From: Tritrichomonas musculus
Lineage: Eukaryota > Parabasalia > Tritrichomonadida > Tritrichomonadidae
Reading direction: 5' to 3'
Length of the DNA stretch: 64,000 nt
Assembly: GCA_039105265.1 (NCBI GenBank)
Contig: JAPFFF010000001.1
Location: 1,612,001 to 1,676,000 of the forward strand
Shown here: positions 14,770 through 35,070 of the stretch, one piece after another
Layout: each line of letters opens with the position of its first letter
Position numbering within the stretch: the stretch's first letter is position 1
Made by a program: the position numbers and the translations under genes
The notes under the pieces: model-generated
The model's input: the letters and a program-made list of their open reading frames with translations, nothing else
The model's database searches: none
Told to the model about the DNA's origin: nothing

Positions 14770-14800
14770 TTGTTCTTGCAAAAAAAATTTAGATCTTATC

Positions 14801-16596
14801 TTAGTCATAACCAGTTGGTCTTCCACGTGGGTAATATTGAACACCATCTTGAATTGACCAAGTCCAATAAGTATCAGAACAAATCCACATTTCTGGAATT
14901 GGTGAAACTTTTGATCCCGCGTCTGTATTTACTTGAATTGTTCCTGCATTATTTTTATAATATGGGTATAAATAACGACATTTCTCATCAACTTCAATAA
15001 GATTTCCACGGAATTCAATTGAAACAGCTTGATTACCAGTATCAACTCCATCAAATACATATCCAGAATTACCTCTCTCCAATTGAAAATTAATTCCAAA
15101 ACTTGTATTATCAAATGGACACATGAAATATCGATCATGCTGATTCATGGTTGGAATCGATTCATAAACATGATTTAACGGTCTAGAGATTGATTCTAAA
15201 TATTCAACTGTTGGTTCAATATACCCATCTAATTCATTTGCCATTAATTGATATTGAACAAATCTTCCATCCCAAGAATTATCAAACTCAGTTTCTGGAT
15301 ATTTCTTTTTATTAACTGATAATCTAAATTGAGTAAACATTGGATTTTGATAAACTGTTAAGTCATTTGGTTTACTTGGAAACATTAAAGTAATATTTGT
15401 TGCATTCTTTAATGGAATTGATTTTGAAATATCTATTCGTTTTTCTGTAATTCTTGATTCAAATTGATATCGTGTTAATTCTTGAGATGGAATAATAATT
15501 GGTTCTTGTAAAGTTGTCATTAAAGCTTCAATAACATCAGGTTTGACACCAAATCCAGCACAATTTGTACGACATTTTTCAATTTTACATTCATTTACAT
15601 TAACTTCTAATGTATTCAAATCTATTTCATATTTATTCCATTGTGCGACACCAGTCGCATCAGTACACTCGATGCACAATAATAGGCATTATTTGGAAGT
15701 GAGTTTTCTGTTGTATCGTTCTTTTTAAATTTTCCGAACGCACATTGATAAACTTTGGAAACAATGAGTGCCTCTTGATTAATTTGAACAAAATGATTTG
15801 TAATTGGAAGATCAGGTGCATTTAATTCACCATTATTTGCTGATGTCCAAAATTTAATAGCTTCGGCAACATTCTTTGGAGGAACTTGACACCAAACTAA
15901 ACCATCTAATGTGAATTTTATTTCTTCTTCAACTTCTCCTAAAATTCGATTTGGATATAATCTCCAAGCTTGTAATGCTAATTGATCTGTGAAAGGAATT
16001 ACAAGTTCCATTTTGACCTGTACTTTCTTATTATTACCTTCAAATGCACTCATTGGAATATAAACACCTGCAACATTTGGAGACATACAACAAACACTTT
16101 CCCATAAAGAATGAGAATGAGCAGAATTATACTTTGAATCTTTTGGTCGAATTGAATTATATGCGAAGGATTCTCTAACCATTTCACTTTGATGATAACC
16201 TGAGATTAATTTTCCATCAACCCAAAATTGTAATTCAGATATGATTTCAACAGCATCTTTGAAACCAACGAAAATCAAATTTAATTTTTCCCAATCTTTT
16301 CCAGTAAACACGTTGGCAGCAATTGTTTTGTTCATTGATAGATTTAAATCTACGATTAATCGAAGAAAACTTTTCTCTATTTGAGATATTGTATGACCAG
16401 AATGAGTTAATCTTATTTTTGTTTTTGTACCAATTGGAATTGTTTCATCTTTGTCATGACATAATTCTTCTACGACTGAAAAAGTATTATCTCCTCCATT
16501 CTTTTGTACTAATGTCCTCAAATGATTATTGAAAAAGTTTAATATGTCACCTTCATCATTTCCTGTATTCTTAAATTGTGCGTTTTGATAAGTCAT
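14801..16596 (-). pseudogene. mcp: Major capsid protein, copy 2, split by one frameshift
   Basis: From the ATG at 16596 (MTYQNAQFKN) the frame gives 324 residues homologous to the first half of copy 1. It then turns to nonsense and stops at 15622. A second frame starting near 15679, without an ATG, encodes the remaining 290 residues or so homologous to copy 1, ending TYWTWSIQDGVQY at 14801. One single-base change near 15665-15685 separates them, just before TDATGVAQWNKYEID. The paralogues are clearly diverged, so the duplication is not recent and both copies were probably functional. The lesion could be real or a sequence error. Confidence 0.8.
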
Positions 16597-16665
16597 CTGT
16601 TTTTATGAAGAATTTAAAAAATTCGAAAAGCCAATTTTTTTTAAAATGAAAAACAATTCTATACA
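16597..16665. promoter_or_regulatory. Divergent intergenic region between capsid and amphipathic-protein genes
   Basis: Only 69 bp separate the start of the capsid copy 2 gene (minus) from the start of the 93-aa gene (plus). It contains a run of eight T followed by A-rich sequence and must hold both promoters. No TCATT-type initiator like that of host genes is present close to either ATG. Confidence 0.5.
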
Positions 16666-16947
16666 ATGGCTTTTGGTTCTTGGATTAAAAAAATAGGAGA
16701 GAAAGTTAAAAATTTTGCACAAAAAGCAGTTCCAATAGTTCAAAAAGGTTTACAATTTGCAGCAGATAAAGTTGCACCTGTCTTAGAAAAAGTTGGAGAA
16801 ACAGTAGGTGGAACAATTGGTAATATTGCAAGTGGTATTGGAAGAGGTATTCGAACAGTTAATGATAAAGTTCAACCTTGGTTAGAAACTGGGAAAGAAA
16901 AATTCTTACAACCTGCTTATGATAATAATAATTATGGACCTAGTTAA
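16666..16947 (+). CDS. Amphipathic minor virion protein, pVI/pX-like in character
   Basis: A 93-residue basic protein starting MAFGSWIKKIGEKVKNFAQK. The first 45 residues or so form a strongly amphipathic helix with Lys on one face and Val/Phe/Leu on the other, followed by Gly-rich GETVGGTIGNIASGIGRGI. Small proteins with this composition occur beside capsid genes in adenoviruses, Polintons and related elements, where they line the capsid or disturb membranes. Function here is inferred from composition and position only. It is divergent from the capsid block. Confidence 0.6.
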   Translation: MAFGSWIKKIGEKVKNFAQKAVPIVQKGLQFAADKVAPVLEKVGETVGGTIGNIASGIGRGIRTVNDKVQPWLETGKEKFLQPAYDNNNYGPS

Positions 16948-16950
16948 AAT

Positions 16951-17082
16951 TTATGAGTACATTCTTCGTCTAATTTCATCATCTAATGGTGGCTCATTTG
17001 GAGGGAAAAGCTTTATAACTCTTAATAATGTGTTCATTAACTCAATCAAAACAAGCGTTCCTAAGAGAATTTCAATCAGCAT
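16951..17082 (-). CDS. Small membrane protein (43 aa)
   Basis: A 43-residue frame between two larger genes: an N-terminal hydrophobic helix (MLIEILLGTLVLIELMNTLL) and a short polar tail PPNEPPLDDEIRRRMYS. It fills almost the whole gap between its neighbours, with the stop 4 bp after the stop of the convergent 93-aa gene. The ordered hydrophobic-then-charged layout suggests a real single-pass membrane protein. No homologue is recognised. Confidence 0.5.
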   Translation of the reverse strand: MLIEILLGTLVLIELMNTLLRVIKLFPPNEPPLDDEIRRRMYS

Positions 17083-17133
17083 ATTGTTTTAAATATTTTC
17101 AAAAATGTTTAAACAAATTTTATTTTTTTTAAA

Positions 17134-17436
17134 ATGGAATTGAAAATTATTGAACCTATTCAAAATTATTTAAAAGAGTTTAACACAACTGATGAGTTTA
17201 ATTTATTCTATTCTAAGAACAAAGAACAACTAGATTCAGAAACAACACATAAACTAAACAAAAAGTATCATATTCAAGGTTATCGTATAACCAAAATCAA
17301 AGGTGAATTAATGTTAAAGAAGGTTAATGAAGACGAAGAAAAAGACGATTCAGAAATTTTGAAGATCAAAGATGATATTGCAAAAATTAAAATTACTTTG
17401 AATGATGTTATAAATTTTATTAACTCTAAGACCTAA
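17134..17436 (+). CDS. Conserved-looking element protein, 100 aa, unknown function
   Basis: ATG at 17134 after a T8AAA leader. The protein has a compact basic N-terminal part (TTHKLNKKYHIQGYRITKIKG) and a highly charged helical C-terminal half (DEEKDDSEILKIKDDIAKIKI) that could dimerise. Its end overlaps the convergent packaging ATPase gene by 11 bp. The part around HKLNKKYHIQGYRITKIKGEL looks like a small DNA- or protein-binding fold, but I cannot assign it. Confidence 0.6.
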   Translation: MELKIIEPIQNYLKEFNTTDEFNLFYSKNKEQLDSETTHKLNKKYHIQGYRITKIKGELMLKKVNEDEEKDDSEILKIKDDIAKIKITLNDVINFINSKT

Positions 17437-18289
17437 TATATGTATCACCACCTGAAGAACATTGAATAACAATCATTGGATGTTCATCTGGATGTTCATG
17501 TTTCATTTCATTTAATTGTTGAAATGCATCAAAAAAGTCTTCAAAATCTAAATTACTTGCTGCTTGAGAATAAATGTAACGTAATTGTTGTTTATTAAAA
17601 CCAGGCAATAAATATAAAGTACTTATTTCATTTTTAATATGTGGTTTTAACCCTTTCCAACCTTGAACTAATAAGAAATAAGACATATTTGTATGACGAC
17701 ATCTACGTAATAATTGACTAAAAAATGATTCTTCTGACGAGAATAATTTTGAATTTGAAATATCATCAAATAATACGATTGAATGTAAATATTCTCGATC
17801 AAAATCTTCAACAAATAAAACATTAAATAAGTCATCTAATTGATCTTGTGAAATTTTATTTTTGGTTCTTTCTCTTCGAATTTTGTAATATAAACTTTTT
17901 GCTGCTAATAATTCATCAATACATTTTTCAGCATCTTTTTCACTAACTACAACTGTTGGCATTTGTAATAATGGTTTTAATGATAACCAACTTTTATCGT
18001 TCTCTTCACCATCTTTTGTAACATAAATTAATAAATGATGAGTATTAAGTATTGAAATTTTAATGATTTCTTCTAATGCTGTAACTGTTTTTCCCATACT
18101 TTGTTTACCTACAATAACATTAACAGAATTATATTTAGCAACGATATCTTCATGAATTGGAGCAATTAAAGAATCATTCTTTGGACTCAAATTTGATTTT
18201 AATCTTGCTTTTATTTTTGATCGAATGTTTTCTTTCTCAAAGTTAACTTCTTCTTCTTCACTATCACTAAAATAATCATTGTCACTCAT
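17426..18289 (-). CDS. DNA-packaging ATPase (A32/FtsK-HerA superfamily)
   Basis: 287 residues. The Walker A motif is GKQSMGKT at residues 61-68, preceded by a VNVIV strand; Walker B is IVLFDDIS with acidic D175-D176. A later QGWKGLKPHIKNEIS segment is in the place of the sensor/arginine region of viral packaging ATPases. The N-terminus is a short acidic stretch (DSEEEEV). These ATPases pump genomic DNA into preformed capsids in Polintons, virophages and nucleocytoplasmic large DNA viruses. Size matches the family. Its presence beside capsid genes is the strongest evidence that this element can encode virions. Confidence 0.88.
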   Translation of the reverse strand: MSDNDYFSDSEEEEVNFEKENIRSKIKARLKSNLSPKNDSLIAPIHEDIVAKYNSVNVIVGKQSMGKTVTALEEIIKISILNTHHLLIYVTKDGEENDKSWLSLKPLLQMPTVVVSEKDAEKCIDELLAAKSLYYKIRRERTKNKISQDQLDDLFNVLFVEDFDREYLHSIVLFDDISNSKLFSSEESFFSQLLRRCRHTNMSYFLLVQGWKGLKPHIKNEISTLYLLPGFNKQQLRYIYSQAASNLDFEDFFDAFQQLNEMKHEHPDEHPMIVIQCSSGGDTYIRS

Positions 18290-18342: not shown

Positions 18343-18834
18343 TTACTCTTCAGTTGTTTCGTCATCTGCTTCATCTTCATCCTCATCAAATTCACTTGAT
18401 GCTTGTTGAATTGCAGCTACTAATAATTGTTCAATATCTTCTTCAAAATGTTGTCTATCGTCTTTTGGTCCAGTTTTCAATTTTTCAATTAAACCGTCAA
18501 CAATTTTATGATAATCTTCTTGAGTTGTTTTATTTCCACGATATCTTCTTTGTTCTTCTTCTGTTGTTAAACCATATTCTTGATAAAGTGGTTGTAAAAC
18601 TAATTGATCCCATACAATTGGATAAGCTTTACATAATAATCTCATTTTGTCAACTGGAATTAAATCAACATAATTTGTTTCTGCTAAAGCTTTTTCAGTA
18701 ACTCTTCCCATAACATATTTCTTAAATTTATTTAATGCTGATAATTTTCTTGGTTTCTTTTCAGGTTTTTTACCGCTTGAAGCTTTTAATTCTTGTAATA
18801 ATTTTCTTAACTCACCTATATCTGCGTTACTCAT
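18343..18834 (-). CDS. Helical protein with basic N-terminus and acidic tail
   Basis: 163 residues from the ATG at 18834 (MSNADIGELRKLLQEL); the longer frame to 18864 adds only a hydrophobic AT-rich leader. A Lys-rich stretch (GKKPEKKPRKLSALNKFKKY) is followed by a compact helical region (VDLIPVDKMRLLCKAYPIVW) and an extremely acidic tail (FDEDEDEADDETTEE). It lies 53 bp upstream of the packaging ATPase on the same strand. It could be a scaffold or chaperone-like virion factor; no family recognised. Confidence 0.6.
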   Translation of the reverse strand: MSNADIGELRKLLQELKASSGKKPEKKPRKLSALNKFKKYVMGRVTEKALAETNYVDLIPVDKMRLLCKAYPIVWDQLVLQPLYQEYGLTTEEEQRRYRGNKTTQEDYHKIVDGLIEKLKTGPKDDRQHFEEDIEQLLVAAIQQASSEFDEDEDEADDETTEE

Positions 18835-18868
18835 AATTTTTAAGATAAAAATAAAAATAAACATTTAT

Positions 18869-19807
18869 TTACTTAAAATATTTCATTAATTGAGGATTAT
18901 TTTGAATTACACTTGGAATTTCAGATGTTTTCGGAATTTGTTTGACTTCGGTTGCTGGTTTTTCTTCTGTTATTGTTTTTGGAATTGATTCAGGGATTGT
19001 TTTTGGAATTGATTCAGGGATTGGGGTTATTGTTGGTTTTGGTACAATAGCATCGACTTTTCTTTGTAATGGTTTCGTCTTTGTCTTTTTCTTTGAGATA
19101 TCTTCTTTATCAATTGTACTCTTTTCTGAAATAACTTCATCGTCATCATCTTTCTTCTTTTTAGCTTTTGAATTTTTCTTTAAGAGTTTCGTTCTTTCAG
19201 ATTTTTGTTTCTTAAATTGTTTACTTGATTTAGCTTTTGTATTAATTGTTGGTTTCTTTGGTTTGATTTCAACCTCTTCACTTTCTTCTTCAACTTTTTC
19301 AATTGCTTTTTGTTGTTGTTCCATTTCTTCTTTTGCTTTAAAGCGTAAAGGTAAATTCTTTCGACCTCTTCTTGGTAAAACTTGTATCATATTATTTTTG
19401 GTTTTGACCACTTCAGGTTGATCAACTTTCGTAGGTAATAAGTTAATTTTCTTTCCTGGTTCAATTTTTGTTAATGTCATTGGTTTTTCAGATATTGGGC
19501 TTACAATCGGTTTCTTTTCAATTGGTGTTTCTTTCTCTTCTGTCATTGTTGTTTTTGATGAAAATAAATTATTAGTATTTGAATTAGATGAATAAGGTAC
19601 AACAGGTTTAGGAGGAGCATTTTCATTAAATTGAGACATTATTGATGTTTTTCCATTTAATTTATTTTTCTTTTGTTGTTCCATTAATAATGATCTAATT
19701 GATATACCTTTTGCACTTTGTTGAATTAAACTAGTTATTCCACCTTCATAATTTTTAGACCATACACTTTCTTCTTTCTTTTCACTTCCATCATTAATTG
19801 TAGGCAT
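18869..19807 (-). CDS. Basic low-complexity protein (312 aa)
   Basis: The protein is mostly disordered, with alternating basic and acidic patches: RRGRKNLPLRFKAKEE, KKPTINTKAKSSKQFKKQKS, KKKKDDDDEVISEK, then Pro/Thr/Ile repeats (TPIPESIPKTIPESIPKTI). The N-terminal 60 residues (VWSKNYEGGITSLIQQS) may be ordered. Such proteins in virus-like elements often bind DNA or serve as linkers in the virion core. Its ATG lies 10 bp after the stop of the giant gene, so the two are probably transcribed together. Confidence 0.6.
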   Translation of the reverse strand: MPTINDGSEKKEESVWSKNYEGGITSLIQQSAKGISIRSLLMEQQKKNKLNGKTSIMSQFNENAPPKPVVPYSSNSNTNNLFSSKTTMTEEKETPIEKKPIVSPISEKPMTLTKIEPGKKINLLPTKVDQPEVVKTKNNMIQVLPRRGRKNLPLRFKAKEEMEQQQKAIEKVEEESEEVEIKPKKPTINTKAKSSKQFKKQKSERTKLLKKNSKAKKKKDDDDEVISEKSTIDKEDISKKKTKTKPLQRKVDAIVPKPTITPIPESIPKTIPESIPKTITEEKPATEVKQIPKTSEIPSVIQNNPQLMKYFK

Positions 19808-19817
19808 TGTATTCGTA

Positions 19818-22800
19818 TCAGTCGTTGTTGTTGTTGTCGTTGTTGCTGTGTGTTGTTGTTGTTGCTGCCGGTTTATTCATTGTTGTACCTATGAAATTAT
19901 TTCTTAATGCACCACCAATTCCAACAGATGTATTGTTATTTGAATTCTTTTCAGATTCTTTTTGTCTTGCTTCATTCATCATATTATTAATGTCAGATAA
20001 TGCAGTATCGGTTTCCATATTTTTATAACGTTCGAATCCAATTTCAGTTAATCCTACTTTTCGTCTCATCGAATTCAAATCACTTAGTTTTAATTCAACC
20101 TTCTTTTTATGTTCTTTCTCTTTATCGTCTTTCTTTTTCTCTTCATCCCATTCTTTTTGAGCTTCTTTTTCTAAATTCTGTAATATTATTATTGTTGGCT
20201 CTAAATTATTCACAGGTTTATCTTGATAATCCGAATATTTCAAAGGTGTGTGTTCTTTCTTGTAATGTTCTTTGAGTTGTTTATATATCTTATTTGTTTT
20301 AAAGATATATCTATTCAATTTTAGGTATCGTTCTAAATCATCTAAGTTTGGATATAATTGAACCAAATTTTGATATGTTTCTGAAGAATCATCTGTATGC
20401 TTATGATATTCTGATAACATAGTTTTGAAATACTCTTCTTTTTCTTTCGTGACTTCCTTTTTATATTCTTCATAAGCAGGTCTAATATGATCTATTTTAA
20501 CATCTGAATCTTTCAATGGATTTGTTGGATCTTTATTCAAAATATATTTTTTAACTACACTCTCTACAGAATCTCTTGACATTTTTCCATTTTTCTTTTC
20601 TATTGAATTATGATCGTCAATTAATGGCAAAAATGCTATCTTTTCTAAGACATGTATCCAATTTGGATTCTTAGGATCTTCATGAAAACTATTTAAATCA
20701 TTTGGATTCACTTTCTTATTAAAATGATTTTCATAATCAGGAATGAACTCAATAATTGTTTGTAACGCATCCAAATTATCAGAATTAACACTTAACTTCT
20801 CCAACATATCGGTTGAAATTTGATGATCTTTATCTTTGTTCTTATTGATTGAATCTATTGAATCTATTAATTTATTCTTCGAATCTGTTTTTGATTTCTT
20901 TGATAAATCTTTCACCTCTTTTATAAATTGTTTCATATCTTGAATCGTTAACGTTCCAATACCATTTTGAGTTTTATATGATTTTATTGCAGTATCGAAG
21001 TCAACTCTATTCTTTTTCGTGTGTCCTAAATAATTTTCATATTCTCTCCAAACAATATTTGCCTTGTTAGCGATTTTTGCAATATTGAAATCAAAATCTA
21101 AATTCTCATCTTGTACTCTCCAATTGACTCCGTAAGTTGTTTTTAAATATTTTGCATATTGCATCATTTGATTTATTGTTATATCCATACCGAATGCTGT
21201 TTCATATCTTTGTCTGAGAGGTTCTAAGGTAGCATATTTCATTTTATCATAAGGAGTAAAATACTCGGCTGGAATTGGCTTATCTTTATTTTTAGAATTA
21301 TATTTGTTTATCAATTCATGATATTCATTATTTTCTGAATATTTATTGACATACGCTAAGTAATTTTTAAGATATTTGATATCTCTTCCTTCTTTATTCC
21401 ATTGTTTAATTGTTGAATCAATGGGGAAATCAAGATTGAATATTTTCTTATATTTTTGCAATTCACCTTGCAATTCAATTTTATAATTACCTGTATCTTC
21501 ATCTTTATAATTTTGAATGATTTTCTCTCGTTCATCCAAAGATAATTTCATCCAACCATCTTTTCCTTTGAATTTGTCATAAACGCGTTCAATTTCTGAT
21601 ATTTCTTTTTCCAATTCTTCACAAAATTTCTTTGGACTTCCTGTATATGAATCATCTTTTGGAGCTTTGGGATTCAAATAATTGTATTTCGTTAATAATA
21701 ATGTTTGATAAGTCTTATAACAATGGTATTCATTTTCTGCAAATATATCATCAATACTTTTGACATTATCACCTGTTAAACCATGTGAATCATTATATAA
21801 ATCAACTAATTTATCAATTCCTCTGAAACTATCTAATTTTTCCTTTTCTTTCTGATATCTCTTTTCAATTTTTTCTAAATATTCGAATTGAGCACTTGGT
21901 GTTGAACCCCAACTTTTACGATCTTCATAATTAAAAACTTTCTTATATTTTGTTTCTAAGTCTTTGATTTTAATCATAATTTTCAAAAAATTGAGAACAT
22001 TATTTACTTTATATTTTTGTTCTTTCTCAATATCTTCTAATTTCTTTGCAGTATCTTTATATTTGTCTTCATATTCATTATAGAGACCGTTTATATTTGT
22101 TGAAGTCTTTAATTGATTTTGATTTGTTTCATATCTCTCTAATTCTCTTTGCATTTTACTAATATCTTCCGAATTTTCTCCATAATCTTTTTCATTAAAA
22201 TCTTTATCTAATTTTTGTAATTTGAGTTTCAATATTTTGTAATTCATCATATTCAAACAACCCGTAGAATCAGTCTTATATTTGGTAACGATATCTTGAA
22301 CTGATAATTTTTCTGTATTAAATCTTCTATTATATTCATCTAATGTGTTTTTGAAGTTAGGAAGTGTATAATAATATGTATTATAAATTCGAAAGAACTC
22401 ATCAAGTTTTTCTATTTGATCTTTTTTGGATAATTTTGAAGACCATGTATCATCTGGAAAATCTTCCTCGAATTTCTTTTTTCTATTTTCGAATACAATT
22501 TCTTCATAGACTTTATCAATATTTCCGTCATATTTTTTATGAACTTCTTCCCATTTATGCAATTGATCTTTCGGTTCTTGATAACGATTCCAATGTTCTA
22601 CTTCTGGCATTAATTTTTCCCATTTTGGTTTAATATCTCTTGTTTCTTTCATCTTCAAATCGAAAAATTTATATCTTTCTTTTTCATTTTTGAATGTGTT
22701 CATCTTTGTATCTGGTTTCAATCCTACTTCTTCACAAAACGCTTTGTATTCTGATTCCCAAATTTCATTTTGCAAATATCGTCTAGCGTCTAACACATCA

Positions 22801-25800
22801 TCATCTGGATTATCAGAATCAATATATCTATTAAATAAATCATCTATAGAAACTTCTTGTTTTTGATTGACTAATAGTCTCTGAATGTCACCATCAATCC
22901 GAAATTTCTCATATCGTTTTATGTAATTATTGATTTTATTAGCTAATTTTGCATTTGTTACTTGATAATTAGTTTCGAAATTTGGATATTCTTTCCCTGT
23001 AAATTTTCCCCAAATTTTCGTTAAAATTTTATAATAAACAATATCTTTATTGTACTTATCATCGATCATCATTTGTTCTATTGTTGGAAGAGTCGAATCA
23101 ACGTTCTCTTTTGCATAATCATACCATTTTCGAACTTCACTATCCCAAAGTATTGAATTTTTCTTTATATCAATTTCACTCTTTTTATTCTCTAAAGCTT
23201 TCAAATATGTTTCCCATTTTCCATCAAAATTTTTAGGGAAATTATCTTTTGACAACTGATAAGTAGTTTCAAGTTCATGTTCTAACAATACACATTTCAT
23301 TGCATTTGTACAATTTATATAACTTCCATAAAGTCGTTTAATATCAGTAACATCATGATGTGAATGTTTAATATCATTATATTGATTTAATAATTGTTGA
23401 AAACTTACTGATTGAAATGCCGTATCATCTTTTGAGACATTATTAAAAATCTCTTTCAATTTTGTTATACCGGCTAAAGATATTGGTACATCTTTTATAT
23501 CATTATTATCTGACGTAATTGCATTTATTTTTCCAACATATGTCCAATATTCTAAATAAATTTTTGCTGATTGAACATTATCTTTAAACTTTTTCACTAA
23601 CCATAAATGATTTAGAGTGTCTTGACCCGACTCTGCATTATAACAATTTAATTTTATTTGTAATTCATTATCTACTTTATAATCTTTATAATTTTTCAAT
23701 AACTTTTCAATTTCATGAATATGTGCTAATTTTTGATCGTTATTTGGATCTGTTTCTTTTATTGAATAATCTTCTTGAAATTCTTCACGATATTTCTCTA
23801 ATAAATAGTGATATTTTAAATCTATTTTTGCTGATTCATAATCTAATCCATATTTGATTTTACATTGATTAATTGTTTGAGTTGATCTATCGTCGGAATG
23901 ATTTGATCGATAATCAGAATGAATTTTCAAAAAGGCTGGTGAATTCCAAGAAGCTGTGTTCTCATCTTCAATTTTTGAAACAAAATTTAATAACCAATTT
24001 AATCTTGATGTTAAATCTTTTTCGTCAATATCGTGATATGGAGCAAAATTTACATCTCCTCTCGGTAATTCTTCGTCTTCATTTCTTCCGAGAGCCACCA
24101 ATAATGTTTTCTTATTTTTCTCAATTTCTAAATATTTCATTGCATCAGCTGGTTTTTCAAATTCATCTTTCAAATCTTCATAACTCTTTTTTGAATTTAT
24201 TCGACCTTCATTTTGATATCTTTCTAATGTTGATTTCACATTTGAATTTTCCCAATCATCATTCTTTTTACGATAATCTTCCGCGGCTAAAATAATATTA
24301 TTGTATTCTGTTGAAACATTTGAATTATTAGTATTTGAATCAGGTATATATCTTTTTCCAACGAATTGTTGGTAATATTTCTTAGCTAATGGAATTAAAT
24401 AATTTTTATACATTTTGTCTTCATCCCATGAAAAATCATATTTCAACCCTGTTTTATTTTCCTCTTTCAATGCTTCTAGATAAAAAACATGATTTCGAAA
24501 ATCAGTGTTTGATTCCCAATTTGATTTTGAATTTGAAAAATTGGTAACACTTGATTGAATATTATTTAAAAATGTAGATTGATTGACTGCATCACCTTGA
24601 TTCACAACTGTTTGCAAAAATGAATTAATATCTGAATATTTTTGACTTCCATTCATATTTTCGATTTCTTGATTTCCTTCATAAGCTGCGAAGAATTGTA
24701 AACATCTATTCAAATCTCCATAAAATTTTCCAAATAAATAATACAACGCTGATTGTTCAGAACCTCCAAATTTATTTTTGTATTTTGTTAAATAAGGTAA
24801 TAAAGTTGGATTCCCTACCCATTGTCGACTATAAATCGGATAATATTGACTATAAAAATTGTTTAACGCTTGATAAGCCGATTCAATTGTTCCACCATTT
24901 CTAACAATATAATTCTTTAAATTTACCTCTTCATGAGGATTAACATTTGCCCAAAATTGATAACCCGGAGTTAATTTTAAAATCGCATTTCTTGCCTTAT
25001 AATTATCACCAAATTCAGTTCTCCAATCTTCAGCACTTTTGAAATCATTTGGAAAATGTGGTTTCCATACTTCACGAATAGCTCTTTCTAAACTATCATT
25101 GAATTCCACAGAATTAATTTTTGATTGAATTTGATTACGTAAAGACTGTGTTAATTTAAGAATATCATCTGTTGGACGAGCAGTTGCAAAAATTCTTTCA
25201 GCAGTTAATTTTTCGTGATCTGGAGCAATCTCATTATATTCATTCAAAGCTAGATTGAAATTCCGATCTGTTTTAATTGATCGATAAAGTGGCTCTTTTC
25301 TTAGAAATTCTTTTTGTAATTTATCCAATGCTTTGAATATATTTGAATGATATTGAGCATGATCCCAAGTGGCAGGCATTGTGTTTGGAGGATACATTAA
25401 TCTTATTTGTTGATACATCATTTCACCTTGCAAATATGCATAAAATTTAGCTCCGTCTTCCTCAAATTTGTCTTCTTGAATATATGACCATTCACTTTGA
25501 GGGAAAATGTCTGGATATGTATTTGATAAATAAACTTTCAACTCATCAATTTTTATATTATCTTCTGGTGACATTTGACCAAAATTTGATCTCATTAACA
25601 AATTCAAATTTGAACTCTCTCGATTGCTCTTATAAAAATTATCAAAATCGACTCTTGTTTGAAACTGACTCCAATTTTTTCCAAAACCAATATATCTCGT
25701 CTTTGCATCAATAAATTTATCAACATCTTCAACTCTATCACAATGACCAACAATTTCTTTTATTAATGTTTCTTTTTCAACTGAGTTTCTTCCTTGACAA

Positions 25801-28800
25801 TATTGATCAATTTTCAATCGAAAATTACTATCACTCAATATCGCATTTCTTTTTTGTTTCAATAATTCTAATTCTTCTCTCATTTTTTGATTTTGTTGGT
25901 TTTCAGGCTCATTTGTAATTTTCAGAAGATTCAAAGGATTATATTCAATTATTTCTAAACGAACTTCATATTCCTCAGCTAATTCAAATAAACGTGGAAC
26001 TTCATGACCCGCATCTTGAAATGTTTTCATTCCTAAATAGATATTACTTATATTTTGAGAATTCCATTTTCTAAATAATTCTCCCATTTTCTTAAATTGA
26101 GGTAATAACGATTGTAATTTTGCTTCTAATTGTGAATAATTTCGGTTAACTTCAGGATAAGATCGGAATAACAATTCAATTACTTTTTCATTAATATACG
26201 AATTATCGAAATCTGGAAATGCTGATTGAAAACACTCAGTCAATTTATTATTAACATTTTGTATAAGATTTCCTGTTTCTCTATTTTTTTGTTGAATATG
26301 AGCTTTTATTACATTAATTTGTTGATCAATTGGGAGATTTGAATGTTCTCGAATCATATCATACCATTTTGCCTGTGTAAATTCTTGACCATATGCTTCT
26401 CGAAATGTATCCTCTAATTTATTTAATTCTAAACGTTCTTTCAGGGTTTTAACAATTTCTGTATTTCTTTCAATTTTTTCATTGATATTTGATAAAACTG
26501 TATCTTGATTGTAAGTTGTTGCCACTTTGTTCAATATATGTTGAAGAATTGATGCTGAATCAATTTCTTTATTTGTTATTTGATATTTTTGTACATAAGT
26601 TCTTTCCAAATTCTGAATTTTTGTTTGAATTAATTGTTCTTTTGTTTCCCAATTTCTTACCCAATCATTGAATTTTCTATCTCTCTCCTGAATATTTTCA
26701 ATATCTAAAATCGGTTTCACCTCTGTATCACGAATTCCCTCAACAGTAAATGGTCGACCAGAATTTGATATTAAACGATGAATTTGATTTCCATAATGAT
26801 TTATTTGTTGATCTTTTGCATTTGCTTCTCGTCTTTCCATATCATTTTTCAGTTCATTAAATAGATTTTCACCATTTTGAGGAGTTGATTGAACTTGATT
26901 AATAAAACTTTGTTTGACAGCGGTTAGATTCACTTTTTCAACACTTGATACAATTCCATGAATAAAATTAATATTTTCAATCTTTGTTCCAATTTCATTA
27001 TTGAATCTCTGAATCCAATTTGTAACTGCTGAATTTCGCCTTTGCAGTAATTCTCTACCTAACTCAGATAAATAACTGTCTTTATTTTGACTTGATAGAT
27101 ATTCTGCATATTTTGTTCTTATTTCTTCGTCTGTTGATACAATACCATTATTATCATACAATTGTCGAATTCTTTGAGTTATTGCTTGTTCGTTATGATG
27201 ATCTAAATAATCTTGTGAATCCTCTTTAATATTTTGTAACTCTTCACCTTTCTGTTCATTTCTCAAATTATCACCATTTACATAATTTTCAATTAATCTT
27301 GTTCTTTCTGAATTCATATCATTTTGAGTTATCCTTTCAGCTCTTACTAGATTTTCAATTGTTATAGTTATTGTTTCCATTCGATTATTTTTAATTGTAC
27401 TCCACCTTCTGAACTCATTTTGAATTTGCGATTTCACACCACCTTCTTTATTGAATTTATTTTCCATTTTATCTCTTCTGCTACGAGTATTTCGATCATT
27501 AAATTCATCATCATTTGTCCAATATTGATGAGCTAATTCTTGAATATATTTCTCTGAAAAATTGAATGCTCCCAAAACTCTTCGAATTTCTGCATAAGTT
27601 TTATTTCCATATTCTTGAAAATCATGATAGAATTCATTTTGAAATGTCTTTGTATCAATAAATTCTCTTAATGCATTTTTTGTTGGATATTCTTGATAAA
27701 CCATTTGATTTATCCAACTATCTTTATCTGGTCCTAAGTTTTCATGTTGAGATCCTATCTCCCAAAGTTTTCCAAGTTTCCCTTTCAAATCATTCAATTG
27801 TCCATTCCATTCATTTCTCATCTGATTTACTGATCTTTCTGATTGCTCTGTAAAACCTCTTCCATTCAATTCATCTACTGATTCCTGATCTGTTATTTGA
27901 TCATTTGTTCCTAATGACCATTTTAAATAAGCTCTCATATATTCAATCATTATTATCCAATACATTTCTGGATAAGCTTTTGTTAATTGTGCGGTTATTT
28001 CACTTGGTTGTTTTATTGAATTCATATTTATATTATGAAATTCTCTATCAATTATACTCATAAATTGATTTATTTCAATATTGTCTTTATTAAAAAATGG
28101 ATTTTCATCTTGAAGAACCTGTAAATAACGTTGCCAAGTGTCTCTTTGTTCGATTCTTGTTTGAGCTAAAAATCTTTCCCATTGATTATCGTTATTTCCT
28201 CTTTCTTGATCCGTTGACCCTTGATTCAATTCTTGTTCAGGTAATTGTATTGGTTGAACCCCTTCTTCTAAAATTTCTTGATTTTCTGCTTCATTTTGAA
28301 TTTCTTGTTCTTCAGCTTTTGCCTCATCTAACCAAATTTTTTCTCTTTTTTTTATTTTTTCAGCAATCCATTGTTTGTGCATCATGTTTATGATATCTGG
28401 GTTATTTGCATACAATTCCTCCATTGATACTTGAGTTTCCCATAACTTGTCATTTGCAATCATAAATAACGTTTGATCCTGGTCAAGATTGGGTTCAGAT
28501 GATAAAAATGTTTGTAACTCTTGTTTTATGTCTTTATCTAAATTTGAAAACATTTGTGGTAATAAATCTATCACTTTATCCAAACCTATTTCACCAGTAT
28601 ATGCTTTCATTAAACACAAATTATATGCAGTTTCACCAATTATTCGACGATAAGCTTGATTTTTATCATTTTTGTTGTAACTATTCATTATATTTTCTAT
28701 TGCTTTTGACGAGTATGGATATTGTCTAAATTGCTCAACACAATTTTTTATTCGGGTATCTTCTGGAGTTGTCGTATTATGAATGTAATCTTGGATAACA

Positions 28801-30248
28801 TACCAAATATTCAAATGTAATAAGGCAACATTTCTTTCGTCTGTACTTCCTTTCATTAAAGCTGCACCTCTTTCTGGATTGATTTCCGCAATTTCTTGAA
28901 TTAACATGGTACAAATTGTTGTGTATCTATCATCGATATCAACCCCTTTCTTGTCGACTATTTCTTCCAACATTTTCATTTGATCTTGTACGTTATCAGG
29001 TGATATCGGGGTGCATTCTAATGTTAACTTTTCCATTAATAATTTCTCACAAAGATCTTTGATATCTTTTTGTCGTGCTATTGAATGAATCACTTTTTGT
29101 CTGAGTTGTGCCTTAAATGTCCATTGATCTTGTTCGTTATTCCAAAGTAATACTTTTTGCAAAATAAAGTTTCTCGTTTCATCCCATTTATCACCATAAA
29201 CCAGGTCATTATAATTGGTTACATTAAACTTTTCACAATCAGTTAATAAAATATTCAAATATTTTGAAAAGACTGAAGGATCAAACCAGTTTTTATTTTC
29301 AAAATGAATATATTTTATTAATGCAACTGTGAATAAAGTTTGAACATTTTCATGATTTTTTTCCAAATTTTGTAAAACTGTTAGAATTCCTTTTAGATTA
29401 TTCAATACATACATTGCACCGTCTTGTTCAGCTCCTGCTAAAGATATATAATCATCTGCTCGAATGTCCATTCTTTCTTTCGGAAGGAATCGGAATTGAC
29501 GTTGTTCATTTGTTCCTTTATTTTCATATATTATTGTTCTTGATATTTTTGAATTTAACGCATCACAAACCTCAAAAATTGCGTCTGAATTCAATAAACT
29601 TATTAAAACCTGTTTATTCAATTCGCCCCAAGATTGTTGAATAAATGCTTTGTAAAATCTCATATAAAGAGGATTGTAAGGTTTCCCACTAAATGAATAA
29701 ATATAGAGATCCCCTAATTGAAAAGTTGCATCGAAAGCTTGATCTAACTTTCTTCCTGGGTCCATATGAAAAGCGTGTTGAACCAATTCATACAATTCTC
29801 TTGTTTCTTTATAATTCAAACATATATCATAATCTGTTGGATCAACTGGCAAATAATGACTTCTATCAAATTTAATAAATAATTCCTCAAATTTATCCGA
29901 TTTTTTCTTTTTGATATCTTTTATCGAATTCATCAAATCTCCTCTTTTTTGTTGATATTCGGCATTTACATTATCTAATGTTAATCCAAGAGTATCACCA
30001 AGATGAAGTTCTTTTAAAGCTAACGTTTCTATCATTAAATGAGTATATAAAATTAATTCATTTGTTTCCTCTATTGTATTTGGATTTTCTGTAAAATATT
30101 GATGAATTGTTTGTATATTTGGTTCATCAATTTCAACTTCCTGACAAATTCTAATTAAAAATTCAAATTCTTTCTTTGCATCTTGATCTTTAAAAGTAAC
30201 CGAAATTCCTTGATATTCATAAGATATACTTAGAGTTTGATTTGTCAT
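19818..30248 (-). CDS. Giant alpha-helical protein (3,476 aa), unknown function
   Basis: One uninterrupted frame of 10.4 kb takes about a third of the visible element. The N-terminal 480 residues look globular (VDPTDYDICLNYKETRELY, WNEQDQWTF). The rest is almost all helical and rich in Lys, Glu, Asn and Tyr. From about residue 1700 to 3250 I see degenerate modules of roughly 100-130 residues, each with a Y-x3-Y/F element, a DI/SI-x3-F helix, a YK/MKY-x-L helix and a conserved Trp (compare LLNQYNDIKHSHHDVTDIKR, LYNDSHGLTGDNVKSIDDIF, ELINKYNSKNKDKPIPAEYF). The C-terminus is Asn/Thr-rich. No enzyme motif, signal peptide or membrane span is visible. A virion core, tape-measure-like or host-interaction role is possible but unsupported. 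Confidence 0.8.
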   Translation of the reverse strand: MTNQTLSISYEYQGISVTFKDQDAKKEFEFLIRICQEVEIDEPNIQTIHQYFTENPNTIEETNELILYTHLMIETLALKELHLGDTLGLTLDNVNAEYQQKRGDLMNSIKDIKKKKSDKFEELFIKFDRSHYLPVDPTDYDICLNYKETRELYELVQHAFHMDPGRKLDQAFDATFQLGDLYIYSFSGKPYNPLYMRFYKAFIQQSWGELNKQVLISLLNSDAIFEVCDALNSKISRTIIYENKGTNEQRQFRFLPKERMDIRADDYISLAGAEQDGAMYVLNNLKGILTVLQNLEKNHENVQTLFTVALIKYIHFENKNWFDPSVFSKYLNILLTDCEKFNVTNYNDLVYGDKWDETRNFILQKVLLWNNEQDQWTFKAQLRQKVIHSIARQKDIKDLCEKLLMEKLTLECTPISPDNVQDQMKMLEEIVDKKGVDIDDRYTTICTMLIQEIAEINPERGAALMKGSTDERNVALLHLNIWYVIQDYIHNTTTPEDTRIKNCVEQFRQYPYSSKAIENIMNSYNKNDKNQAYRRIIGETAYNLCLMKAYTGEIGLDKVIDLLPQMFSNLDKDIKQELQTFLSSEPNLDQDQTLFMIANDKLWETQVSMEELYANNPDIINMMHKQWIAEKIKKREKIWLDEAKAEEQEIQNEAENQEILEEGVQPIQLPEQELNQGSTDQERGNNDNQWERFLAQTRIEQRDTWQRYLQVLQDENPFFNKDNIEINQFMSIIDREFHNINMNSIKQPSEITAQLTKAYPEMYWIIMIEYMRAYLKWSLGTNDQITDQESVDELNGRGFTEQSERSVNQMRNEWNGQLNDLKGKLGKLWEIGSQHENLGPDKDSWINQMVYQEYPTKNALREFIDTKTFQNEFYHDFQEYGNKTYAEIRRVLGAFNFSEKYIQELAHQYWTNDDEFNDRNTRSRRDKMENKFNKEGGVKSQIQNEFRRWSTIKNNRMETITITIENLVRAERITQNDMNSERTRLIENYVNGDNLRNEQKGEELQNIKEDSQDYLDHHNEQAITQRIRQLYDNNGIVSTDEEIRTKYAEYLSSQNKDSYLSELGRELLQRRNSAVTNWIQRFNNEIGTKIENINFIHGIVSSVEKVNLTAVKQSFINQVQSTPQNGENLFNELKNDMERREANAKDQQINHYGNQIHRLISNSGRPFTVEGIRDTEVKPILDIENIQERDRKFNDWVRNWETKEQLIQTKIQNLERTYVQKYQITNKEIDSASILQHILNKVATTYNQDTVLSNINEKIERNTEIVKTLKERLELNKLEDTFREAYGQEFTQAKWYDMIREHSNLPIDQQINVIKAHIQQKNRETGNLIQNVNNKLTECFQSAFPDFDNSYINEKVIELLFRSYPEVNRNYSQLEAKLQSLLPQFKKMGELFRKWNSQNISNIYLGMKTFQDAGHEVPRLFELAEEYEVRLEIIEYNPLNLLKITNEPENQQNQKMREELELLKQKRNAILSDSNFRLKIDQYCQGRNSVEKETLIKEIVGHCDRVEDVDKFIDAKTRYIGFGKNWSQFQTRVDFDNFYKSNRESSNLNLLMRSNFGQMSPEDNIKIDELKVYLSNTYPDIFPQSEWSYIQEDKFEEDGAKFYAYLQGEMMYQQIRLMYPPNTMPATWDHAQYHSNIFKALDKLQKEFLRKEPLYRSIKTDRNFNLALNEYNEIAPDHEKLTAERIFATARPTDDILKLTQSLRNQIQSKINSVEFNDSLERAIREVWKPHFPNDFKSAEDWRTEFGDNYKARNAILKLTPGYQFWANVNPHEEVNLKNYIVRNGGTIESAYQALNNFYSQYYPIYSRQWVGNPTLLPYLTKYKNKFGGSEQSALYYLFGKFYGDLNRCLQFFAAYEGNQEIENMNGSQKYSDINSFLQTVVNQGDAVNQSTFLNNIQSSVTNFSNSKSNWESNTDFRNHVFYLEALKEENKTGLKYDFSWDEDKMYKNYLIPLAKKYYQQFVGKRYIPDSNTNNSNVSTEYNNIILAAEDYRKKNDDWENSNVKSTLERYQNEGRINSKKSYEDLKDEFEKPADAMKYLEIEKNKKTLLVALGRNEDEELPRGDVNFAPYHDIDEKDLTSRLNWLLNFVSKIEDENTASWNSPAFLKIHSDYRSNHSDDRSTQTINQCKIKYGLDYESAKIDLKYHYLLEKYREEFQEDYSIKETDPNNDQKLAHIHEIEKLLKNYKDYKVDNELQIKLNCYNAESGQDTLNHLWLVKKFKDNVQSAKIYLEYWTYVGKINAITSDNNDIKDVPISLAGITKLKEIFNNVSKDDTAFQSVSFQQLLNQYNDIKHSHHDVTDIKRLYGSYINCTNAMKCVLLEHELETTYQLSKDNFPKNFDGKWETYLKALENKKSEIDIKKNSILWDSEVRKWYDYAKENVDSTLPTIEQMMIDDKYNKDIVYYKILTKIWGKFTGKEYPNFETNYQVTNAKLANKINNYIKRYEKFRIDGDIQRLLVNQKQEVSIDDLFNRYIDSDNPDDDVLDARRYLQNEIWESEYKAFCEEVGLKPDTKMNTFKNEKERYKFFDLKMKETRDIKPKWEKLMPEVEHWNRYQEPKDQLHKWEEVHKKYDGNIDKVYEEIVFENRKKKFEEDFPDDTWSSKLSKKDQIEKLDEFFRIYNTYYYTLPNFKNTLDEYNRRFNTEKLSVQDIVTKYKTDSTGCLNMMNYKILKLKLQKLDKDFNEKDYGENSEDISKMQRELERYETNQNQLKTSTNINGLYNEYEDKYKDTAKKLEDIEKEQKYKVNNVLNFLKIMIKIKDLETKYKKVFNYEDRKSWGSTPSAQFEYLEKIEKRYQKEKEKLDSFRGIDKLVDLYNDSHGLTGDNVKSIDDIFAENEYHCYKTYQTLLLTKYNYLNPKAPKDDSYTGSPKKFCEELEKEISEIERVYDKFKGKDGWMKLSLDEREKIIQNYKDEDTGNYKIELQGELQKYKKIFNLDFPIDSTIKQWNKEGRDIKYLKNYLAYVNKYSENNEYHELINKYNSKNKDKPIPAEYFTPYDKMKYATLEPLRQRYETAFGMDITINQMMQYAKYLKTTYGVNWRVQDENLDFDFNIAKIANKANIVWREYENYLGHTKKNRVDFDTAIKSYKTQNGIGTLTIQDMKQFIKEVKDLSKKSKTDSKNKLIDSIDSINKNKDKDHQISTDMLEKLSVNSDNLDALQTIIEFIPDYENHFNKKVNPNDLNSFHEDPKNPNWIHVLEKIAFLPLIDDHNSIEKKNGKMSRDSVESVVKKYILNKDPTNPLKDSDVKIDHIRPAYEEYKKEVTKEKEEYFKTMLSEYHKHTDDSSETYQNLVQLYPNLDDLERYLKLNRYIFKTNKIYKQLKEHYKKEHTPLKYSDYQDKPVNNLEPTIIILQNLEKEAQKEWDEEKKKDDKEKEHKKKVELKLSDLNSMRRKVGLTEIGFERYKNMETDTALSDINNMMNEARQKESEKNSNNNTSVGIGGALRNNFIGTTMNKPAATTTTHSNNDNNNND

Positions 30249-30294: not shown

Positions 30295-30705
30295 TTATTC
30301 ATTTGAATCTTCTGGTTCCTTCAAATTTAGTGGGTCAACGAAGCAATCTCGTAACCCATCGACAAATTGATTCAATACTTGTGCTTTTGATTCCAATTGG
30401 ACTTTCTTTTTTTCTTCTTCTTTTTTCAAATCGTCCAATTTATCTCGATTTTCATCAATTTTTAGCTCATTTTCAACCATCATTTCCCATATCGGATCGG
30501 ACTTTGGATTTTTATCAATTTCATCATTTATATAGCCGTTTTCTTCGGTGAGCCTTCGATTTTCTGATTCCAGTCTTTCTATTGTTTTCATGTCGTCGTT
30601 TAATGAATCAGCTAATTCCAATAACCTTGTTGTATCATAAATAAAGCTGCGTACTGTCTTTCTGAAAACCTTAAGACTTTGCTTATCTTGCTTCCTGCTG
30701 TACAT
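30295..30705 (-). CDS. Coiled-coil protein (136 aa)
   Basis: ATG at 30705. A basic N-terminus (MYSRKQDKQSLKVFRKTVRS) is followed by a long charged coiled coil (RLESENRRLTEENGYINDEI, NRDKLDDLKKEEEKKKVQLE) and an acidic end. It lies 46 bp upstream of the giant gene on the same strand, so both may share a promoter. No family is recognised; oligomerisation is likely from the heptads. Confidence 0.65.
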   Translation of the reverse strand: MYSRKQDKQSLKVFRKTVRSFIYDTTRLLELADSLNDDMKTIERLESENRRLTEENGYINDEIDKNPKSDPIWEMMVENELKIDENRDKLDDLKKEEEKKKVQLESKAQVLNQFVDGLRDCFVDPLNLKEPEDSNE

Positions 30706-30852: not shown

Positions 30853-31395
30853 ATGATTTTTCGTGCTCACCTCATCACATCATTTTTACTTATGTTCGCC
30901 ATCTCCGAGTCCAACGTAGAGCCTACAGAGAACTACCCAATAGAGAACCTATCAGATCTTATCGATAAACACCCAGATGATTTAGATTTAAATGAAGATG
31001 ACTATATGTACCAGAGTTTATGCAAAATTGTAACAGCAAAAGATACACCATTCAATATTGGCCCAAAGCAAGAATTTATCAGAAATTATTATCGTGAACT
31101 TCACAAATGCATAGAAATTCGACAAAAAATGTTTGAAACAACCCTTGATATAGTCAAATGTAAATTCAATTTCGATGAAAATCTTTTTACGAGCATTTCT
31201 ACCAGATTCTTTCAATTTTTCCCAAATACCACAATTGATTGGACCCTATTGGACCCTCAAAGAGGAATGTACCAATTTCTAGATTCATATGCAGAGCATT
31301 TATTTAATAGAATAGGATTTTACACAAGATGGATATACTATCCAATTGAATGCCATGCAAACGATTGCCTTTACTTAAGTAAACCACACAATTAA
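30853..31395 (+). CDS. Putative secreted or membrane-targeted protein (180 aa)
   Basis: ATG at 30853. The N-terminus MIFRAHLITSFLLMFAISES is a convincing signal peptide with a likely cleavage after AISES. The mature part is acidic near the start (DKHPDDLDLNEDDY), has several Cys (YQSLCKI, LHKCIEI, IVKCKF, IECHANDCLY) that could form disulphides, and has no second membrane span. It is the outermost gene of the element and is oriented toward the presumed right end. Base composition is somewhat richer in GC than the neighbouring structural genes. No family is recognised. Confidence 0.65.
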   Translation: MIFRAHLITSFLLMFAISESNVEPTENYPIENLSDLIDKHPDDLDLNEDDYMYQSLCKIVTAKDTPFNIGPKQEFIRNYYRELHKCIEIRQKMFETTLDIVKCKFNFDENLFTSISTRFFQFFPNTTIDWTLLDPQRGMYQFLDSYAEHLFNRIGFYTRWIYYPIECHANDCLYLSKPHN

Positions 31396-31424
31396 CAACT
31401 TTTTCTATATCTTTTTTGATGTTA

Positions 31425-31560
31425 ACGATACGGGGCCTCCTTCCTAGCAGAGCGTTGAGAGGAATCCTGAGAGCAGCCCAGTGGAAGATCATTAATGGGA
31501 GTGGGGGATCATACCTGGCATAGTGGGGCTGGGGTCACGGATGGGAAATATTTGACGCGG
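31425..31560. other. GC-rich island at the presumed right end of the element
   Basis: This block is far richer in G and C than its surroundings (for example gtgggggatcatacctggca and ggggctggggtcacgg). After it the sequence becomes ordinary AT-rich intergenic DNA. It probably belongs to the terminal inverted repeat of the element, whose partner is outside the window. I considered a structured RNA but could not fold a known type. Confidence 0.45.
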
Positions 31561-31562
31561 TT

Positions 31563-33445
31563 TTTGAACGAAGTGCAAAAATCGTGGCAAATATATAACT
31601 ACTTAAAGATGATTTGATAATATTATATACTTTATTAATGTATTTTATATACATCATTATTTAATTAAATGAGCTATTATATTTGCGATTTATATGAAAT
31701 TTTGCCATTAATGTAAAAAAAAGTCAAAATGCTTATTTTATTCTCAATAATTGAAACTTGGGATTTAATAATAATATCATTAATTCAAAATCAGTAATGA
31801 TATAATTTTGTCAGATAATTGATATCTAAAAACTTTCATATAAGAAAATTTTGATGCACAAAATAAAGTTAAAAATCATATCACTTTTTTGTTTTTTTTC
31901 CAATAAAAAATAAAAACTTTTAAATTTTTATTTAAATATTTGATATAATGCATATAGTATAATGATATTGAACGAATAAAATTGGCGGTTCTACTCAAGA
32001 TCTATTACCTTAATGAAAAAGAGTAACTTCTGAAATAACTTAAAAAGACTTTCAATTTTAGACATTGAGAAATTATTTTCATTATTTAAATAGTTCTTCT
32101 ATACTTACCTAATATTTATTGATTAATTGCTATTTTTAATGCTATTATAATAGAAAAAATAAAAAAGTTAAATTTGTATATTTCTTAGAAAAACCTGAAA
32201 TCTTGATGGGCAACAATGATTTTTAGAGGATTAATAATATATTTCATTGTATGTGTTATCAAATAATGTAATTCTGAAATCATATCAATTATGCATGAGT
32301 GATTTATGAATGATTTTGAATGAAAAAAAGAAAAATGAAATTTTTCCAAGATTGATTCTTTTTCAACCATATTATTATATTTAATATATTATATGCATCA
32401 TATAGATGATTAATACTGCATCTAATTTGAAATAAAAAAAACTCATTTTTCAAAATTAGTAATTTTGTATGAATGATTTTTGTCATATTTTGAAAACACT
32501 TTTTCTTTTTATATAATTATTATTTCAATAAATTTTTTTCTAAAATATAATATATACATTATATTCTAAAATAATAACTATGTTAGAGCAAATTAAAACA
32601 ACCTTTTTTTTATGGTAAAAGCATGAAATGTGATATGAAATAGTTTTTTGAGTAGTGAAATGAAAATGAAACCATTTTTTCTAATTATCTATTTTATTTC
32701 AATAAATAATAATGATACATTTTAATTATAGATGAAAAGTAAATTATAATTTTTTTCAAATAATAAAAAAATATTCAGAAATTAAAAATTCGATATCATA
32801 TTTATGATCAAATTTAGTTTGATAAAAGTGAATGAAAATCGGGGAATAGAATGTATCCAATATGATATTAATTGTTCTACAATTGTTTTTTTAAAAGTCC
32901 AATTTGAATATATAGAAATGATGTGAAAACATAATTATGTCTCCAAAACAGAATTATGTCCACCAACTATATTTTATATTAAACATAATTTATATCAAAT
33001 ATATATAGTAAATATATGAATTACTAAACTCAATAAAAAGATATTTGCAAAATTATCACTTCATTTTTTTAGTTTCACCACACATCACACCACATAATTT
33101 TCTCTTAAATTTTCTATCAAAAAACCAAGTGAAATGTAAATAAAAAAATTAGATATTTGGAAATATTTTCAAATACAAAATAGACATATAAATGATGATT
33201 TTTAAAATTGCTGATATTTTATTGATGCATAAGTTCTCTTTATTTGATTTTTATATTTTGTTTTAATAAATGTTAGCTAATTAACTAAAGATATAATTTC
33301 ATGTAAAAATCATAGAAAAGGAATAATAGCCTTTATCATTAGTCATTTATTTTCCTTATTGTTTTGTTGATATATATCAAGTTTGTTTTTTAATTGAAAA
33401 GGAATGAGTAAAGTTTTTTTGGGATTTTATTTTCCATAAAACCAC
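31563..33445. other. Gene-free AT-rich intergenic DNA
   Basis: No reading frame with protein-like composition, no tRNA-like GC patch and no clear tandem array were found. The stretch consists of AT-rich sequence with many short A and T runs. Confidence 0.6.
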
Positions 33446-34603: not shown

Positions 34604-34988
34604 AACTTTTACATAAACTGGAATCCAAATCTTCGCATTCCAAAAAAAAATTAAATTAATTTTATTATAAATTTAAAAATAAAATTTTATAAAAAATTTA
34701 TACAAAACATTCTACCAAAATTGCTTCATTTCTCGTCATTAAAGTACAAAATTCAATAAGTATTTTATTCAAATAAGTCATACTCACCAAAATATGCGAT
34801 GAAGAACCAGGGAATAAGTTTTTTGAATTATTTAGCCCATTAGAAATCGAAACTTTTTGAATAAAAGTTATTATTATTTTCACTTTTTGATGTATACTTT
34901 TCAGAGTTTACTTAATTTTTATTTAAATAAAAAATAATTTACTTCAAAATCGATATCGAGATTTGGATTCCAGTTTATGTAAAAGTTT
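34604..34988. mobile_element. MITE of about 385 bp with 29-31 bp terminal inverted repeats
   Basis: The left terminus (aacttttacataaactggaa at 34604, extending to 34635) is matched in inverse at 34957-34988, with near-perfect complementarity over about 30 bases. The interior is AT-rich and non-coding. No clear target duplication was found. The size and structure fit a non-autonomous DNA transposon. Confidence 0.65.
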
Positions 34989-35016
34989 TTATAAGAAAAT
35001 TATTCTTATAATTTTG

Positions 35017-35021
<5 letters not shown>

Positions 35022-35070
<49 letters not shown>
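35022..35070. repeat. Poly-T tract of about 49 bp
   Basis: A long pure T run lies about 45 bp upstream of the BspA pseudogene. Such tracts recur in this window (36536, 36900, 46424, 58113). Confidence 0.9.

Follow-up and report, generated by a model that had tools for sequence, protein, structure and literature searches.

A 47.6-kb Maverick of the parabasalid Tritrichomonas musculus carries a giant gene that exists in the same genome as several alleles. Four alleles of one lineage, reported here as new, have bodies 25–40% identical and are flanked by much more similar genes, a pattern suggestive of a scaffold in the virus particle on which strong pressure to change is acting. Because the gene stands in a same-strand, late-type cluster and encodes a long helical and exchangeable body with a conserved basic C-terminal end, we read its product as a putative virion core or scaffold protein, in which a conserved C-terminal anchor is joined to a fast-diverging body. 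We give this reading a probability of roughly 45%, slightly short of even odds. Mavericks are today regarded as endogenous viruses, and their particles are little known.

A giant gene in a 47.6-kb Maverick

The window (the whole 64,000-nt stretch analysed, from an assembly published in PMC11978803) holds part of an element that spans 47,556 bp between 230-bp inverted repeats, which are 97.8% identical. Similarity to another element (L033) drops from 99% within the repeat to 74% and 63% outside it. A family B DNA polymerase gene (L009:7326-9998, running into the window to position 679; DNA_pol_B_2, E 6e-42), an A32-type ATPase gene, the inverted repeats and a target-site duplication mark the element as a Maverick. 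It also carries a DUF5906 helicase-like gene, a KilA-N gene and a weak integrase match (PF00665, E 1.8e-4, with 22.1 bits falling short of the 32.6-bit cut-off); no adenain-like cysteine protease was matched in Pfam by the larger element ORFs, which the scan covered. The giant, its neighbors and the right end of the element lie as follows.

12943..14847, minus strand: 634-aa capsid candidate, matching no family; two frames share a related copy at 14801-16596
17426..18289, minus strand: packaging ATPase, A32-type (Pox_A32, E 6.5e-5, 23.0 bits against a cut-off of 22.8)
18343..18864, minus strand: 173-aa gene directly downstream of the giant; in lineage C its domain belongs to a larger protein
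18869..19807, minus strand: 312-aa ORF, the C-terminal end of the giant in relatives, split off by a frame change (one frame in P0002 and P0003)
19818..30248, minus strand: giant ORF, main part of the giant protein, 3,476 aa, ATG to stop in a single open frame
19899..19919, minus strand: conserved IGGALRN linker (residues 3444-3450), preceding the basic tail
20442..30236, minus strand: hypervariable, exchangeable body of the giant; the edge near residue 3270 is approximate
21372..24014, minus strand: ten tandem helical modules of about 88 aa (residues 2079-2960)
30295..30705, minus strand: 136-aa gene directly upstream of the giant, its alleles re-assorted against giant alleles
31375..31603, no strand assigned: right terminal inverted repeat; left partner at L010:4048-4277, with TAAAG outside both

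Given an element of 47,556 bp, the giant takes up 22% of its length, or 24% if the split-off end is included, rather than the third that an earlier, sequence-only reading had estimated. Outward-reading ORFs near both element ends (window 30853-31395, plus strand; L010:4327-4824, minus strand) share the start MIFRAHLITSF and their upstream sequence and differ thereafter. Elsewhere in the window, three near-identical repeat copies (45457-46406, 48406-49827 and 55728-57122; 92–99%, two in one orientation and one inverted) each hold a 142–151-aa ORF starting MGRKGKQWRAIK. Arrays of a 69-bp repeat occur at 34980-35900 and at 39706-41393, the second within a 551-aa leucine-rich-repeat ORF that we presume to be BspA-like.

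How complete is the giant frame? It comprises 3,476 codons and one terminal stop; when the window was mononucleotide-shuffled 20 times, the longest stop-free frame per shuffle reached 92–131 codons. The frame had been described as intact over 10.4 kb; it is real, but its C-terminal end is split off when set against two relatives. These are P0002 (an ENA record of 3,793 aa, listed as 100% identical to the window giant, with ten substitutions as far as residue 3,465) and P0003 (3,729 aa, from T. musculus, partial at the N-terminus and 33% identical), and both read through the region equal to the window ORF at 18869-19807. In the window, that ORF lies in another frame, and the break falls in a low-complexity, Thr-rich stretch just past residue 3,465; it may be an assembly error. 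At 15 of the 21 genomic loci with the P0002-type allele, the frame stays open for at least 3,770 aa, counted stop to stop. Judged by its relatives, which are about 3,790–3,860 aa long, the window giant is a cut copy.

On the same strand the order is 136-aa gene, giant, 173-aa gene, ATPase, capsid candidates and spike-like genes. The 634-aa gene, which we take to be the capsid candidate, had in its window copy no Pfam match at E up to 10, including to DUF4106 (a family reported for T. vaginalis), and no PDB match. This gene is tandemly duplicated (12943-16604, minus strand), and in L032 the second copy is one frame of about 598 codons. The spike-like 983-aa gene (9491-12442, minus strand) contains a 45-bp tandem repeat; when the window is compared with L032, its ends are conserved and its middle cannot be aligned, making it a second mosaic gene. 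Two small opposite-strand ORFs of about 100 and 107 codons, one of them Gly-rich with an amphipathic-looking start, lie between the ATPase and the capsid candidates (16645-17436, plus strand); their L032 equivalents, of 93 and 106 codons, are in the same place.

How widespread is the giant among Mavericks of this genome? We sampled the 10-kb stretches upstream of 20 ATPase copies, out of 136 scored in the genome, and sorted them by ATPase identity into lineages A (97–100%), B (66–69%) and C (59–62%). At this sampled place the giant was found in 7/7 loci of lineage A, 6/7 of lineage B and 0/6 of lineage C, so the suggestion that it marks a subclass of Mavericks holds for two lineages. It adjoins the ATPase in 13 of the 14 sampled A and B loci; in the remaining one, L023 of lineage B, only its last 20–27 residues are left. 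Of the 13 giant-bearing loci, 9 keep the frame unbroken throughout the sampled part. Probing further A loci with 1 kb each recovered the giant beside the ATPase in 20/20 (10 P0002-type, 8 L015-type and 2 L016-type). A wider census of lineage A, queried with a 701-aa middle piece, gave 64 rows representing 63 loci (one locus fell in two rows), which by identity class were 21 P0002-type, 7 P0003-type, 27 L016-type, 6 L015-type and 2 decayed. Frames of at least 3,700 aa, counted stop to stop, were present at 43 of these 63 loci. Such counts are lower bounds, as four L015-type loci detected by the probes are absent from the lineage A list. The lineage B census returned 43 rows, the last 4 of them A-type; among the other 39, 13 had frames above 2,900 aa, and most were at 94–100%, 64% (one), 37–38% or 35–36% identity, the rest being fragments. 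Homologs thus occupy the same place in other Mavericks of the genome, but protein searches and scans of viral contigs found none beyond T. musculus and the ENA record P0002.

Helical modules on a fixed plan

Matches to known families were sought for the whole giant, and none was found in Pfam (E up to 1), PHROGs or NCBIfam (E up to 0.01) or PDB sequences (E up to 1); no catalytic domain, signal or membrane motif was recognized. This agrees with the sequence-only description of an unrecognized protein lacking a visible enzyme motif. Fold lists were weak, with phage polyvalent proteins best (E 1.7e-4, TM 0.08). Among titles in a largely nonsubscription literature (including PMC10120064, PMC4642659 and PMC10090177), none concerned such a giant gene.

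Internal repeats are well above chance. With a profile of six giants over residues 901-3460, 42 of 946 window pairs scored above 25 (best 67.3), against 0/946 for reversed and 0/946 for column-shuffled windows. The best lags are multiples of 87–88 (near 87, 174, 348 and 436), although 279, 643 and 1,270 also occur. Degenerate modules had been proposed from the sequence; they stand, but with a length of 87–88 residues instead of 100–130. A module profile finds a run of ten in each of the six giants (E 3.5e-5 or better), and beyond these ten L022 has an eleventh after the array, and L015 a strong one set apart. Because this profile was built from the same places, the cross-lineage test counts for more: modules from lineage A find nine and eight in two lineage B giants, and B modules find only four to five in A giants, with one match in a reversed control.

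AlphaFold2 models built from six sequences each, which cover about two thirds of the giant (residues 1180-3465), are almost wholly helical, as the sequence-only reading had held, with a mean pLDDT of 79.2 and pTM of 0.38 for residues 1180-2330 and 78.1 and 0.36 for residues 2320-3465. Long predicted helices recur every 85–94 residues in the modeled part of the array. The low pTM values mean that the models do not fix the overall shape. Helical repeats and great length are also all that would favor a host gene, cytoskeletal or spectrin-like, that the element had captured and carried along as cargo. We consider this origin very improbable: the giant has no Pfam family at E up to 1 and no PDB sequence match, no Pfam family was matched by more than 2 of 30 modules, and the 701-aa middle piece matched only giant-family rows in the genome, as judged by identity class. 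Homology to an ordinary host cytoskeletal protein, which would have undercut the earlier reading, was likewise not found in the Pfam and module searches.

The plan of the protein is constant from the array onward. In all six giants (P0003 being partial at its N-terminus) the array measures 872–901 residues and the post-array part 813–854, the IG(G/S)(A/G) linker and a terminal NPxL motif are present, and net charge runs from −58 to −84 in the first 90% to +13 to +24 in the last 300 residues. Full lengths from ATG are 3,793, 3,811 and 3,854 aa in lineage A and 3,027 and 3,141 aa in lineage B, where giants are about 3.0–3.2 kaa; A and B bodies are 16–18% identical. A constant number of modules would give a constant span whatever the sequence, which is what a length or size ruler, akin to a tape measure and setting the dimension of an enlarged capsid, would require. 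Array and post-array lengths within 4–5% across lineages so dissimilar in sequence fit such a ruler, as do the A full lengths of 3,793–3,854 aa and an element of 47.6 kb, beyond both the 15–25 kb typical of Mavericks and their 40-kb maximum as given in PMC6431247. We nevertheless regard the ruler as unlikely, because A and B differ by about 700 residues, a difference that falls before the array, because tape-measure names appear in the fold lists only at E above 0.02 and TM near 0.07, and because it leaves the exchange of alleles unexplained.

Exchangeable alleles and their divergence

Where do the alleles begin and end? Between lineage A alleles, the C-terminal parts are 69–98% identical, as against 25–40% for the bodies. 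Between the window and the element of L016, identity is 92.2% across 1,456 nt of upstream flank, in which the 136-aa gene lies; this match stops 12 nt inside the giant gene, and similarity returns in the last ~500 codons, the body being 26% and the C-terminal part 71% identical. Downstream, the 173-aa gene and spacer are 94.6% identical in nucleotides (L012 vs. L016), and the ATPase 96.3% in nucleotides and 98% in amino acids (window vs. L016's element). Within the giant gene, L015 and L016 pass from about 33% to 97% amino acid identity.

Neighbors are re-assorted against these alleles. In a combined census of 65 loci (the 2 decayed and all B loci left out), the 136-aa gene belongs to a 94–100% identity class beside 20/21 P0002-type, 6/10 L015-type and 8/27 L016-type giants, and to an 85–90% class beside 7/7 P0003-type, 4/10 L015-type and 14/27 L016-type giants; its match is missing at 6/65 loci. 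Nineteen P0002-type elements, matched by position, have capsid candidates at 99–100% (11), 78–79% (7) or 82% (1). Since alleles of the giant and of its neighbors are re-assorted, the gene behaves as a recombining cassette, and the simplest explanation for the mixed combinations would be recombination at the gene edges or close to them. Giant type largely tracks ATPase subtype, with exceptions: one P0002-type giant has a 624-bit ATPase, and one 622.5-bit subtype is common to L015- and L016-types. Few discrete alleles in one genome that largely follow the ATPase are what an intracellular compatibility or exclusion factor, acting between co-resident elements and forming no part of the virion, might leave. 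Such a factor is quite improbable in our view, given the late-cluster position, the great size and the lack of any partner or immunity gene seen.

Divergence of the body appears to be old. Fourfold-site identity in the body is 0.23–0.67, from 7–16 sites per 200 codons (five windows each for L012-L016 and L012-L015); these small samples fit a saturated divergence. Selection is purifying: dN/dS is 0.13–0.54 in seven same-allele pairs, not all independent, and in three pairs body and last 500 codons give 0.47/0.17, 0.31/0.15 and 0.55/0.35. Between the window and L016's element, dS is 0.06 for the 136-aa gene, 0.13 for the 173-aa gene, 0.17 for the ATPase, 0.35 for a 164-aa gene, 0.42 for the first half of a 1,264-aa gene and 0.60 for the capsid candidate. 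Other late genes thus diverge too, the giant most among those measured; with the capsid candidate and the spike-like genes also differing from one of these elements to the other, the giant is not alone in its divergence.

A host-facing protein that selection diversifies, and that the particle carries inside it or on its surface to act during entry or to be injected into the host, would account for the greatest divergence falling in the giant, and the unalignable middle of the 983-aa spike-like gene and the faint fold similarity to phage polyvalent proteins point the same way. Body dN/dS is, however, below 1 in all three close-copy pairs, the fold matches are marginal, and catalytic, signal and membrane features went unrecognized, so that we judge this role, too, unlikely.

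Lineage C may preserve an earlier state. Its gene directly upstream of the ATPase (396–708 aa) includes the domain seen in the 173-aa gene (in L026 with the best E, 4e-12), and the L026 gene also holds one module core (17.1 bits, E 4e-6; the best of 273 reversed or shuffled controls reached 6.5 bits). The same place in three relatives scored 3.9–6.6 bits, not clearly above controls. These matches suggest that the giant may have grown from a single-module ancestor. The lineage C proteins upstream of the ATPase (L026:8728-9918, L027, L030 and L031) also carry an Asp-rich DxNxDxxPD stretch, and L026 has a sub-threshold FG-GAP match (E 0.01).

More speculatively, the giant could represent giant viral proteins of a new class, with a body of ~3,300 residues, built in part from modules, that would work as an exchangeable identity cassette. 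Co-resident proviruses would swap the body by recombining within conserved arms (the upstream neighbor and the gene's own C-terminal end), altering the particle core or compatibility group while the ATPase stays nearly constant, and the body would have grown by amplifying a module still single at the same place in giant-less Mavericks. We think this full scheme somewhat unlikely.

A putative particle scaffold and its counterparts

What, then, favors a virion core or scaffold protein? An unrecognized, helical, repetitive giant beside packaging genes had been described from the sequence, and the description is borne out by the A32-type ATPase nearby and by homologs in the same place in other Mavericks. 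As possible functions, the same reading had put forward a core organizer, a length-determining factor or a host-entry factor. We count for the scaffold reading the same-strand order of neighbors, the adjacency to the ATPase (13/14 sampled A and B loci and 20/20 further A loci), the 43/63 A loci with frames of at least 3,700 aa together with dN/dS of 0.13–0.54, the constant array and post-array lengths and charge pattern in 6/6 giants, and the contrast between A alleles of bodies at 25–40% and C-terminal parts at 69–98% identity. Against it we count that no known virion family was matched and no protease recognized, as well as the low pTM, the divergence of other late genes and a capsid gene that is only a candidate.

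Under the scaffold reading, the giant would be made late and enter the particle, where its conserved end with the basic tail may dock to a partner that is conserved as well, be it the capsid, the DNA or the packaging machinery, and its long helical body may organize the particle interior. The body would meet something variable—a host factor, a rival element, or the variable spike or capsid candidates—and this contact would drive its divergence. A 47.6-kb subclass whose 3.0–3.9-kaa gene is open and under purifying selection in many copies hints at unusual parabasalid particles, and the re-assorted alleles indicate that elements within a single genome recombine. Because the divergence of the giant is far above that of the ATPase and also exceeds that of the capsid candidate, its interactions may be those that matter most.

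Several known systems invite comparison. Giant polyvalent phage proteins, the best fold match (E 1.7e-4), are likewise very long, mostly helical viral proteins; set against this, no enzyme domain was found in the giant, the TM is 0.08 and the hosts are unrelated. The pp220-type core-shell polyproteins are very long, function in core assembly and are cut by a viral protease at Gly-Gly sites. The giant shares the great length and has a Gly-rich conserved linker, IG(G/S)(A/G); it differs in its mosaic allelic variation and in that no protease was recognized in this element. Nucleocytoplasmic viruses have tape-measure or minor capsid ruler proteins that are long, helical and encoded near capsid and ATPase genes. 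By analogy, the giant, also long, helical and near an ATPase and a capsid candidate, may be comparable; unlike them, it is hypervariable, lacks a sequence match to PDB chains and is three to four times longer. The parabasalid Mavericks/Polintons share with this element DNA polymerase B, an A32-type ATPase, inverted repeats and a target-site duplication, the integrase match here being weak. The usual size of Mavericks is 15–25 kb, with a maximum of 40 kb (PMC6431247), whereas this one reaches 47.6 kb and carries a 3.0–3.9-kaa gene with several exchangeable alleles.
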